Part shown: positions 59,900 through 62,319 of the stretch, piece after piece
How positions within the stretch are numbered: the first letter of the stretch is position 1
How the letters are laid out: each line of letters opens with the position of its first letter
Translations under genes and position numbers: made by a program
Origin: Microbacterium sp. AG1240
Lineage (GTDB): Bacteria; Actinomycetota; Actinomycetes; Actinomycetales; Microbacteriaceae
Assembly (NCBI RefSeq): GCF_003635115.1
Contig: NZ_RBXJ01000001.1
Span: 1,178,001 to 1,242,000 of the forward strand
Reading direction: 5' to 3'
DNA: 64,000 nucleotides
The notes under the pieces: generated by a model
Database searches by the model: none
Told to the model about the DNA's origin: nothing
The model's input: the letters and a program-made list of their open reading frames with translations, nothing else

Positions 59900-60289
59900 T
59901 CAGGCGAGCACGAGATCGATGCGAGGGTGCTGCGCGAAGATCTCGAGGACGATGTCGAAGTAGGTCTGGCCGGTGTCCGTCTCGAGCTGTGCGAGAAGCT
60001 TGCTGAAGTGCGTGCTCGAGAACGTCTCAGGATGGCGGAGCTTCTCCCGGTAGTACGCGGCGGTGGCCTCGCGCCCGAGGGCCTCGCGGCTGACGGCGTG
60101 ATCCGACCAGACCACCCGCACCGCATCGTCGCCCTGGAGCGCGCCGTATCCGCTGTAGAGCAGATCGTCGAGCGCGTCGAGGCTGGGGCCGAGTTCCCAA
60201 TCCTCGCCCGTCATGAACAGGCGGTTGAGCTCGTCGTAGAACGAGGGGATGCTGCGCACCACCGCCCCGCGGATCGTGAACGTGGCCAT
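59900..60289 (-). CDS. Barstar-like ribonuclease-inhibitor family protein
   Basis: A 129-residue protein resembling barstar: an N-terminal strand (ATFTIRGAVV), then SFYDELNRLF, and SLDALDDLLYSG, the segment that in barstar carries the barnase-facing helix. No barnase-type RNase lies beside it. Longer than barstar (about 90) by a C-terminal region (HFSKLLAQLETDTGQTYF). It could inhibit an unlinked toxin or have another role. Confidence 0.7.
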   Translation of the reverse strand: MATFTIRGAVVRSIPSFYDELNRLFMTGEDWELGPSLDALDDLLYSGYGALQGDDAVRVVWSDHAVSREALGREATAAYYREKLRHPETFSSTHFSKLLAQLETDTGQTYFDIVLEIFAQHPRIDLVLA

Positions 60290-60324: not shown

Positions 60325-60418
60325 ACCGTATTCAGGATGAACGCGGTGCGCGCCACCGACCGGGCCCGAAAAGACGGGGGTCGCGACGTTCGCCCGATCG
60401 GTTCATCCTGAGTACGGT
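60325..60418. repeat. Intergenic palindromic element (CTCAGGATGA family)
   Basis: The 18-nt arms (60325-60342 and 60401-60418) match at 17 of 18 positions, with a second outer pairing CCGCCCTCTCG (60313-60323) with 60431-60441. The arm core matches that at 36.6 kb. It lies in the 260-nt gap between the barstar-like and satD genes. Confidence 0.75.
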
Positions 60419-60528
60419 CATCAGGCGGCCCGAGAGGGCGGTGCGGGAGAGCGGACACTGGGGCGTTCGCGGGCGACGGGCGCGGGTGCCGCGCGGCGTG
60501 TATTAGACCATTTCTTATAAACCGACCG

Positions 60529-60547
60529 AATCAGCTATAGGCTTATG
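60529..60547. promoter_or_regulatory. Degenerate SatD-box palindrome over the satD -10
   Basis: AATCAGC-TATAG-GCTTATG follows the 7-5-7 plan of the two palindromes near 62.0 kb (TATCAGC-N5-GCTGATA), matching 6 of 7 on the left and 5 of 7 on the right. It overlaps TAGGCT (60538-60543), a -10 box 6 nt before the satD ATG, so binding would block transcription. Confidence 0.5.
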
Positions 60548-60549
60548 TC

Positions 60550-61206
60550 ATGCAGTTCGCCGTCATCGCCGACATCGTCGGCTCGAGGAAGCTGGCAGAC
60601 CGCGGTCGTGCCCAGCTGACGATCGAGGATGCCGTGCGCGAGGTGGAGGGGTTCGCCCCGGCGGTGCGCGCACTGGTTCCCACCGTGGGCGACGAGTTCC
60701 AGGGCGTGTACGCCGACCTCGCCACGGCGCTGCTCGCGCTCGCCCTGCTGCAGCTGCGCCTCCCGCTCGATGCCGAGCTGCGGTTCGGGATCGGGGCCGG
60801 AGAGGTGCGCGCCGTCACCTCGAGCGCCGATCACGCGATCGAGGACGGTCCGGGGTGGTGGGCGGCGCGCCGGGCGATCGAGACGGTGCACCGGTGGGAG
60901 GAATCGAGGGTTCCTCGCGCGCGCACGTGGATCGCGAGCGGCGATGCGCAAGCCCCGGAGACGACCGCGTTCCTCTCGTCGGTGAACGCGTATCTCGTCA
61001 CGAAGGATCACATCGTCGGAGGTATGGGGGAGAGGGCGCGCCGCCTGACCTACGGCACCTGGCTCGGCCGCTCGCAGGAGTCGCTCGCGGCGGAGGAGGG
61101 GATCACCCAGTCGGCCGTCTCGCAGGCCCTCGCGCGCGCGGGCTCGTCGGCGCTCTCGCTCGGACTCCAGCAACTCACCTCGAACCTCCCGGAGGCACTG
61201 CGATGA
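60550..61206 (+). CDS. satD: SatD family protein with C-terminal helix-turn-helix
   Basis: A 218-residue SatD protein. The N-terminal FAVIADIVGSRKLADRGR and TVGDEFQGVYADL are the family's conserved blocks. The C-terminus (SQESLAAEEGITQSAVSQAL) reads as a helix-turn-helix. The name comes from the sat operon of Streptococcus mutans; no biochemical role is established. It is coupled by ATGA overlap to a membrane protein. A palindrome over its promoter suggests self-regulation. Confidence 0.87.
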   Translation: MQFAVIADIVGSRKLADRGRAQLTIEDAVREVEGFAPAVRALVPTVGDEFQGVYADLATALLALALLQLRLPLDAELRFGIGAGEVRAVTSSADHAIEDGPGWWAARRAIETVHRWEESRVPRARTWIASGDAQAPETTAFLSSVNAYLVTKDHIVGGMGERARRLTYGTWLGRSQESLAAEEGITQSAVSQALARAGSSALSLGLQQLTSNLPEALR

Positions 61207-61994
61207 TCACGGCCGGCCTCCTTCTCCTCACCATCGGCATCGCCGACCTCGCCCGGCAGTTCCTCGGTCGCGGCTCGCGCTCCGCCCGTATCGGCGCCAG
61301 CGTCGCCGTGGTGCTCCTGGTCGCGGTGCTCGGCACCGCCATCGTGGCGTGGCCCCTGGCGGTCGCCTTCGCGGTGATCGCCCTCGCCTGGTTGGCGCTC
61401 ATGCCCAGCACGAAAGATGCGGCGGTCGCGAGCTTCTGGCCCGTCGTCGGTCTTGCGGCCGCTGTCGTCGCCTTCGTCGTGGGGTCGCCCGCGACCGCAG
61501 AGGGCTGGATGGCGATGGATGCGGCGGGGTCGGTCGCGTTCGGCAAGGCCGTGCTCGCTCTCGGCGTCGCGTGCTTCCTGCTCGAGTCGGCCAATATCGT
61601 CGTGCGGGTCGCTCTGCAGAGCGAGCGCTCCGATGCCGCGGTCGTCGTCGCGACGGCTCCCGCGGTCAGGCGGGGGCTCATCGGTCGGCTGCGTCGGCCG
61701 GCGCCACCGGAGCCGACCGTTCCGACCAAGCAATTGCGCGGAGGACGTCTCATCGGCCCGCTCGAGCGCCTGTTCGTCGTCGGCTTGATCTTCACGAGTG
61801 CCGTCGCGCTGCTGGCCGCTTTCATCGCCGCGAAGGGCATCGTGCGCTTCCCCGAGATCCAGAAGGACAACGCCGGCGGCACGCAGGCCGAGTATTTCCT
61901 CGTCGGCAGCATGGCGAGCTGGGCCATCGCACTGGCCGCGGCGGGGTTGCTGTGGGCCGTGGGCGCCACCCCCGCGGATCTCCGTATCAGTTGA
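61203..61994 (+). CDS. SatD-partner multi-helix membrane protein
   Basis: A 263-residue membrane protein with about seven helices (ITAGLLLLTIGIADLARQFL first). A cytoplasmic loop near residues 140-175 is basic and Pro-rich (RRPAPPEPTVPTKQLRG). Conserved-looking RLIGPLERLFVVGLIF and FIAAKGIVRFPEIQKDNA follow. It is coupled to satD, so the two act together. No family assigned; SatD genes often have such a membrane neighbour. Confidence 0.75.
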   Translation: MITAGLLLLTIGIADLARQFLGRGSRSARIGASVAVVLLVAVLGTAIVAWPLAVAFAVIALAWLALMPSTKDAAVASFWPVVGLAAAVVAFVVGSPATAEGWMAMDAAGSVAFGKAVLALGVACFLLESANIVVRVALQSERSDAAVVVATAPAVRRGLIGRLRRPAPPEPTVPTKQLRGGRLIGPLERLFVVGLIFTSAVALLAAFIAAKGIVRFPEIQKDNAGGTQAEYFLVGSMASWAIALAAAGLLWAVGATPADLRIS

Positions 61995-62003
61995 GAGCTG
62001 ATA
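61985..62003. promoter_or_regulatory. SatD-box palindrome 1 (near-perfect)
   Basis: TATCAGT-TGAGA-GCTGATA, one mismatch between 7-nt arms. It overlaps the stop codon of the membrane gene and is 28 nt (centre to centre) from palindrome 2. Confidence 0.65.
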
Positions 62004-62012
62004 TTCGCTCGT

Positions 62013-62031
62013 TATCAGCGTGAGGCTGATA
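62013..62031. promoter_or_regulatory. SatD-box palindrome 2 (perfect)
   Basis: TATCAGC-GTGAG-GCTGATA, perfect 7-nt arms. It ends 21 nt before the ATG of the small ORF. Both palindromes share right arms and spacing, so the same dimeric regulator probably binds them. Confidence 0.7.
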
Positions 62032-62052
62032 GCGCACCAGAAAGGTCGTGCC

Positions 62053-62319
62053 ATGTCCGATCCGCGTCGTGACCGTCTCAGCGTCGGTGTGCTCTCCATC
62101 GCCCCCAGCTCCGTCCCCGAGAAGTGGGAGGTGCGAGCGACGCTCGATGGTGCGGCCGTCGAGGCGCACTGGGGGGAGTGGGTGCGTCTGGCCCGCCGCA
62201 TCCTCGACACCGACGCCCTCTCGCGCGACCGCGAGGCTCGCGGAGACGCGTGGGATCAGGGCCACGCGGCGGGCGCCGACCCGGAGGCCGCGAGCGAAGC
62301 GGTGAACCCCTACCGCTGA
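62053..62319 (+). CDS. Small hypothetical protein of the SatD module
   Basis: An 88-residue protein not recognised. Mixed charge with no membrane helix; WEVRATLDGAAVEAHWGEWV looks strand-rich and the end is acidic. The ATG has AAAGG 7 nt upstream. The two palindromes lie just before it, so it is likely under the same control as satD. Confidence 0.6.
   Translation: MSDPRRDRLSVGVLSIAPSSVPEKWEVRATLDGAAVEAHWGEWVRLARRILDTDALSRDREARGDAWDQGHAAGADPEAASEAVNPYR

Follow-up and report, generated by a model that had tools for sequence, protein, structure and literature searches.

In a window of 64,000 nucleotides (64 kb) from Microbacterium sp. AG1240, we analysed satD, a gene of the SatD family, together with the membrane gene coupled to it and the palindromes that lie on either side of this pair. 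These elements form a real, well-conserved and probably autoregulatory module. SatD itself is probably a transcription factor that reads the palindromes and acts as an autorepressor of satD and of the coupled membrane gene. What seems to be new here is the tandem geometry of the sites, together with a proposed recognition code, a narrow regulon and a sensor domain that resembles a cyclase.

A preliminary description of this DNA had listed three palindromes, and all three lie where it placed them, with exactly the sequences that it gave. Against the pattern TATCAGC-N5-GCTGATA, the site at 62013-62031 has no mismatch, the site at 61985-62003 has one, and the site at 60529-60547 has three. The count of three copies needs correction, however; the sites number four and come as two pairs, the dyad at 60501-60519 having been overlooked. 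This fourth dyad lies exactly 28 bp upstream of the dyad at 60529, the same spacing that separates 61985 from 62013. The window thus holds two tandem operators (60501-60547 and 61985-62031), each made of two 19-bp dyads 28 bp apart; the first covers the satD core promoter and the second sits at the junction of the membrane gene with a small open reading frame (ORF) (Table 1). As single sites, the palindromes differ in how far they rise above background. At no more than three mismatches the window has 3 matches, with 0.73 expected, and 4 of 100 shuffles reach three. Across the whole genome the perfect and one-mismatch sites stand out, with two other places at two mismatches, and the looser threshold of three yields 58 forward matches versus 31 with a reversed control. 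Because of this last comparison, the 60529 site taken alone does not exceed chance; it becomes significant because of the fourth dyad at the shared 28-bp spacing.

Table 1. Features of the satD module in the window.
Feature	Position	Strand	Remarks
satD operator, distal dyad TATTAGA-CCATT-TCTTATA	60501..60519	no strand	found in the sequence; match of profile R1 at 60502-60547
satD operator, proximal dyad AATCAGC-TATAG-GCTTATG	60529..60547	no strand	overlaps predicted -10; end lies 2 bp before the satD ATG
Predicted -10 hexamer TAGGCT (TAnnnT)	60538..60543	+	6 bp before the ATG; basis is conservation
satD	60550..61206	+	predicted class III nucleotidyl-cyclase-like domain, about residues 1-159; predicted C-terminal helix-turn-helix, about residues 160-212
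Multi-pass membrane protein, 263 aa	61203..61994	+	4-bp overlap with satD
Second tandem operator, first dyad TATCAGT-TGAGA-GCTGATA	61985..62003	no strand	overlaps end of membrane gene; profile match
Second tandem operator, second dyad TATCAGC-GTGAG-GCTGATA	62013..62031	no strand	perfect palindrome; profile match
Small ORF, 88 aa	62053..62319	+	no Pfam, NCBIfam or PADLOC match

To search the genome with the tandem motif as a unit, we used a sequence-only profile (R1) built from an ungapped alignment (A2) of the motif in 55 satD upstream stretches of other species, from which the window genome and the closely related G050 and G182 were excluded. Rows of the alignment were selected by their fit to the pattern (no more than four mismatches), so part of the conservation in the half-site columns comes from this selection; the spacer columns, from which the -10 is read, are not constrained by the pattern. 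In the 3.35-Mb genome, the top two places of the profile are 61985-62030 (E 8.0e-5) and 60502-60547 (E 1.1e-3), and the only further place at E ≤ 10 lies in a prophage-like region of contig 2 (E 0.16-0.19). Within the window, the profile matches at the two operators only. Counting strict 7-5-7 dyads at a threshold of at least 6/7 gives few pairs (16 at 14 bp, 9 at 28 bp and 5 at 42 bp), because the half-sites vary and a further dyad, located between the two sites, produces a 14-bp pitch; for this reason we worked with the pattern and the profile. Some species carry three tandem copies.

Across the genus, the operator and satD travel together. The tandem pattern occurs in 70 of 366 genomes at no more than 2 mismatches in 20, with no reversed-pattern match among the rows listed; the first 30 operator loci fetched all carry satD in the stretch, and in 27 satD comes directly after the operator. 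At E ≤ 0.02, the profile finds 71 places, spread over 65 of the 149 genus genomes, and every one of these 65 genomes has a match within 130 bp upstream of satD. Forty-one of them contributed a row to the profile, and the 24 others behave alike. Only six places are not directly upstream of satD: the small-ORF operators of G000 and G050, extra copies 0.94 kb upstream in G039 and G061, a site between satD and the membrane gene in G118, and one unlinked to satD in G136.

SatD homologues are present in 119 of 149 same-genus genomes, and the named matches are mostly Microbacterium. In assembling our set of 137 genus loci we discarded a locus that lacked satD as well as two redundant loci, and G055, G003 and G123 were left out. 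Since 21 of the 137 had been obtained through the operator pattern itself, we repeated the counts on the 116 loci found via satD homology alone. In 81 of these 116, residue 192 of SatD is Gln (Q192); at no more than 4/20 mismatches, 51 of the 81 carry the tandem pair at 28 bp and another 19 carry it at 29 bp. A single fixed spacing of 28 bp is therefore ruled out. None of the 34 K192 genus loci fits the tandem pattern. Among named loci, 26 of 78 have no more than four mismatches at 28 bp (two of 80 were skipped). Over the 137 loci, control stretches of the same size from within satD and shuffled upstream stretches never fall below 7 mismatches.

The arrangement extends beyond the genus. From the rest of the family we fetched the best 30 loci (117 of 249 genomes matched) and examined 28, leaving out weaker SatD-like proteins with E values of 1e-13 to 1e-3. 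At no more than 4/20 mismatches, 18 of these loci have the tandem pair at 28 bp and 4 different ones have it at 29 bp; neither distance is seen in L185, L192, L197, L198, L199 and L206, and after shuffling the pair is found in 0/28. The motif is thus retained upstream of satD in other Microbacteriaceae, a comparison that the preliminary description had proposed: it is there in 65/65 matched genus genomes and in 22/28 family loci. In the wider class, where the best 30 loci were fetched (31 of 246 genomes matched) and 22 examined, all from other families and mostly from other orders, palindromes of the TGAAG or TTAAG type lie upstream of most satD genes.

The letters of the half-sites covary with two residues of the SatD recognition helix. 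Q192 proteins go with GCTKAT-type half-sites and K192 proteins with GGTTAT half-sites: the homology-found loci give 63 Q-C, 33 K-G, 1 Q-G and 0 K-C combinations, with 18/115 unclassified, and all loci together give 77, 33, 1 and 0, with 25/136 unclassified. Residue 187 tracks a second difference. In Q192 proteins of the homology-found set, Q187 goes with ATMAG in 103/107 cases and a residue other than Gln goes with TKAAG in 24/25; for all loci the figures are 124/128 and 24/25. Beyond the family, the operators shift to TGAAG or TTAAG while residue 187 shifts from Gln to Ala, Pro, Asp or Glu. In a ranking of the tested alignment columns that used all loci, uncorrected for relatedness, column 187 tops the ATMAG/TKAAG split with 0.512 bits (next 0.380), and column 192 tops its own split with 0.810 bits. 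Both residues lie within the model helix 187-197, and the covariation together with this location argues for direct reading of the sites by SatD. The preliminary description had proposed that the C-terminal helix-turn-helix binds the palindromes, and this match between recognition helix and half-sites supports that proposal.

A number of observations pull the other way. At E ≤ 0.001, 30 of 149 genus genomes have no match to the window SatD, so the module is dispensable, and 11 of the 81 Q192 loci lack a tandem pair at either 28 or 29 bp. Columns 195 (0.804 bits) and 171 (0.773 bits) are nearly as strongly associated with the half-site split as column 192, and the tree shows the switch at residue 192 only once. 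When the tree is built with the helix-turn-helix left out, there are five changes of residue 187 and eight of the operator type; there are two residue-187 contrasts on well-supported branches, which agree in 1.9/2 on average and are never opposite (ties and K192 rows excluded), and with only two such contrasts the sign test is not significant. The K192-type operators fit simple templates badly, scoring best as type K in 8/34.

These results lead us to propose the following mechanism. The C-terminal helix-turn-helix of SatD would bind the inverted half-sites ATMAG ... CTKAT, with SatD dimers occupying the two dyads 28 bp apart, probably cooperatively. An occupied operator would cover the core promoter and the satD start and so repress both satD and the translationally coupled membrane gene. 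The N-terminal domain, which is predicted to have a class III nucleotidyl-cyclase or palm fold, probably senses a nucleotide-type ligand that would either release or strengthen DNA binding. In the window species and two relatives, the second tandem operator would also put the small downstream ORF under the control of SatD.

This last step is the one for which a different explanation is most credible. The start of the small ORF is most likely the ATG at 62053 and not the GTG at 62020, because homologues align from that ATG. Its homologues occur in 25 of 149 genus genomes, the window genome included; in the 23 other genomes the homologue either lies more than 0.6 Mb from satD or is found on a different contig (G044, one of the 23, has no satD match), and the single-site pattern is absent from the 3-kb small-ORF loci of these 23. 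Only the window genome and G050 carry it among the small-ORF homologue loci; the arrangement is also seen in G182, which does not belong to that set. Among three close relatives, the half-sites are 26/28 identical at each of the two operators, and the inter-site linkers are 1/9 identical at the satD operator and 5/9 at the second; in the distal satD dyad, 12/14 half-site positions are identical and the linker after it 1/9. Among the same three relatives, variable sites in the small ORF number 5, 8 and 20 of 88 each at the three codon positions. Conservation at the second operator is compatible with selection on it, over stretches that are short.

The site at 61985-62031 may instead be an auxiliary operator for looping over 1.48 kb to the satD promoter, or an RNA hairpin that ends the transcript of satD and the membrane gene; we regard this as somewhat unlikely, though it deserves to be taken seriously. 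At the small ORF no clear -10 is seen, the element having no T at its start (GAGGCT), and conservation in the 21 bp that follow the operator (19/21 positions) matches that of the half-sites; both points speak against a promoter operator here. In a distant relative, G178, a tandem site (L079:1501-1545) stands just after the membrane gene and before an unrelated gene, a second instance of the placement found in the window, and at L172 a perfect operator-type palindrome lies between convergent ORFs. Against these alternatives, a terminator scan missed 61985-62031, no T-run follows it, and the operator profile scores this site higher than it does the satD operator.

The repressive sign of SatD is suggested by the anatomy of the satD promoter. 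In the proximal spacer of the alignment, T is found in 51/55 rows and A in 52/55, completing a TAnnnT hexamer that occupies -12 to -7 in the commonest arrangement; in the matching columns of the distal spacer, T is found in only 25/55 and A in only 23/55. A scan with a TTGACA/TATAAT-type sigma70 consensus found no promoter at the satD operator. The preliminary description had placed the 60529-60547 palindrome over the satD -10 box, and the predicted -10 at 60538-60543 does lie in that dyad. With a conserved -10 inside the proximal operator, the start point would fall at about the ATG, so that the satD mRNA is probably leaderless and its core promoter covered by the operator. Both here and in the arrangement seen most often, 2 bp separate the end of the proximal dyad from the start codon. 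This is the position of a repressor, since a dimer bound over the predicted -10 and next to the ATG should block RNA polymerase. SatD could conceivably activate instead of repressing, or a ligand could switch it between the two: position alone does not prove the sign, and the -35 region falls under the distal dyad. We think this improbable, given that the predicted -10 is inside the proximal dyad, which reaches almost to the start codon.

It is less probable still that a regulator encoded elsewhere binds the sites and that satD is simply its best-kept target. AT-rich promoter palindromes in GC-rich bacteria are typical of many regulators, but 65 of the 71 profile places are at satD, all 65 matched genomes carry satD, and the half-sites covary with SatD's own recognition helix. 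That the palindromes are chance AT-rich repeats can be rejected with near certainty: the 60529 site alone is no better than genome background, but the tandem spacing, the ranking in the genome profile, the conservation across genus and family, and the 70/366 genomes matched, with no reversed-pattern match in the rows, all speak against it.

Autorepression by SatD would extend to the membrane gene, which is its regular partner. Among the 115 other genus loci that satD homology identified, the membrane gene follows satD on the same strand in 71 (it is convergent in 33 and not detected in the fetched stretch in 11); the same order holds for 27/28 family loci and 20/22 class loci. The two genes overlap by 4 bp in 66 of 77 measured cases (starts were picked close to the end of satD). 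In G340, G293 and G118 the membrane gene stands apart from satD and has a tandem operator of its own, with 2 mismatches each in the first two and 4 in G118. The three-gene module of the preliminary description thus holds in part: satD and the membrane gene are a conserved unit, and the form with the small ORF was seen in this genome and two closely related ones alone. In the 33 loci with a convergent gene in place of the membrane partner, that gene is similar mainly in its C-terminal part; the pairing is kept and the orientation differs. The protein is modelled as a multi-helix membrane protein with a predicted local distance difference test score (pLDDT) of 82.1; a fold search with the model returned nothing informative (best Z 5.7, ABC exporters), and no convincing Pfam family was found. 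A likeness to DUF3307 proteins was not confirmed, DUF3307 not being among the 16 families found. A role as sensor or effector is a guess. PADLOC defence models gave 0 matches at E ≤ 1 for SatD, the membrane protein and the small-ORF protein.

The structure predicted for SatD shows what such a regulator might sense. SatD matches PF16264 with E 1.8e-13 and 51.1 bits (cut-off 29) over residues 3-117, and 86/86 aligned relatives match it as well. The AlphaFold2 model has a pLDDT of 96.0 and a predicted template-modelling score of 0.91. Its C-terminal helices (161-171, 176-183 and 187-197) form a helix-turn-helix that matches a SigF chain with E 0.0012; Sigma70_r4 is found in 26/86 members at E ≤ 1 (best 1.1e-6). 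Residues 1-159 of the predicted model match 5mbg with Z 13.4 and a root-mean-square deviation (rmsd) of 3.0 over 140 residues, and the GTP cyclohydrolase III 2qv6_A with Z 12.8 and rmsd 2.5 over 114. The 50 best fold rows are mostly adenylyl or guanylyl cyclases (Z 11.1-13.4), and the best Foldseek match is Rv1900c (E 2.7e-4). Residues invariant in 86 sequences include D8, D48, E49, R78, G80, G82, W103 and R107; of these, we tentatively assign D8 and D48 to the two metal-binding aspartates and R107 to the arginine of the transition state. Where a substrate lysine and a transition-state asparagine would be expected, the sequence presumably reads P44 and W103, which would point to loss of ordinary cyclase activity. 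A natural guess is that the N-terminal domain is a nucleotide-binding sensor and probably not a cyclase. This assignment has to be set against the sequence comparisons, since the cyclase resemblance of the model is structural only: hhalign gives a probability of 0.8 %, and the best phmmer match has E 0.61, to a poly(A) polymerase. Guanylate_cyc (PF00211) occurs in 3/40 family genomes and is absent from the window's own genome.

Taken together, these features suggest a broader scheme that we put forward tentatively, as a possibility with rather less than an even chance of being right. SatD proteins would be one-component nucleotide-sensing repressors, in which a catalytically altered class III cyclase domain binds (or makes) a nucleotide second messenger and drives the helix-turn-helix on a tandem 28-bp-phased operator to control a membrane effector; a Q187/Q192 code would let regulator and operator change together, and further genes, prophage regions among them, could gain a tandem site and be brought into the same regulation.

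Several sites lie away from satD. The prophage-like region of the window's own genome has a perfect 28-bp-spaced tandem match between two ORFs (L004:1474-1518; contig 2, 522656-522700), with PHROG matches of unknown function nearby; no tRNA adjoining this site was found. IMG/VR holds four exact tandem matches, one of which (L100) is the same prophage-like DNA and another of which (L101) is a long inverted repeat resembling a terminator; satD is absent from the fetched stretches of all four. In G340, a tandem site away from satD (L174:1922-1966) is near an apparent phage lysis region, judged from ORFs by eye. At L172:2423-2467 and at L091, a perfect 45-bp operator-type palindrome stands about 0.94 kb upstream of satD between convergent ORFs; it may be a terminator instead of an operator. 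In the window itself, inspection by eye reveals a long inverted repeat upstream of satD at 60325-60421 (GACCGTATTCAGGATGAAC ... GTTCATCCTGAGTACGGTC), and a divergent gene at 59900-60289 on the minus strand has a marginal Barstar match (24.2 bits, cut-off 23.4).

The SatD family takes its name from the secretion and acid tolerance gene D of Streptococcus mutans, and the window protein shares membership in this sequence family. Our literature searches turned up no SatD operator, recognition code or cyclase-like fold. In open PubMed Central papers, the phrase 'SatD family' is almost absent, PF16264 and the combination of SatD with Microbacterium occur in none, and no listed paper combines 'nucleotidyl cyclase' with SatD. 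By title, none of the whole-word SatD matches listed concerns this protein, and a search on SatD and inverted repeats listed only satellite-DNA papers and a transposase paper.

According to an extract of PMC12005413, S. suis satD is listed among DNA-binding proteins; in S. pyogenes, as stated in an extract of PMC11323703, satD is an accessory gene and yet essential in transposon data. We infer that this combination is what would be expected of a repressor of something harmful. If SatD represses a harmful partner, the essentiality of streptococcal satD reported in that extract would have a simple explanation (PMC11323703). SatD is common in the genus and the family, and the papers found assign it no molecular function; the present results give it a proposed task, a probable operator, two residues that are candidates for setting specificity, and a predicted fold of the sensor type. 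Should the sensor domain bind nucleotides, SatD would be a compact link from nucleotide signalling to transcription.

Three known groups resemble SatD. With class III nucleotidyl cyclases (light-regulated enzymes of the 5mbg type, Rv1900c and Ma1120) and GTP cyclohydrolase III, residues 1-159 share a predicted fold; SatD appears to differ from these cyclases at the lysine and asparagine positions of the cyclase motif and has no significant match at the sequence level. DUF2652 proteins are bacterial, with a class III cyclase fold and conserved metal aspartates, in the portion of PMC4886424 that we consulted; unlike SatD they are a separate family, single-domain save for one protein, and that portion mentions no helix-turn-helix of their own (PMC4886424). 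For the third group, the Pfam and NCBIfam scans of SatD have no CdaR/PucR family among their rows. Foldseek aligned the SatD model over 235 columns with the Bifidobacterium protein 3onq_B ('Regulator of Polyketide Synthase Expression'), which we take to be a member of the CdaR/PucR group, although the global match is weak (template-modelling score 0.24, rmsd 15.8). CdaR/PucR-type regulators combine a GGDEF-like domain with a C-terminal helix-turn-helix, and this order of a palm-fold domain followed by a C-terminal helix-turn-helix is the one predicted for SatD.

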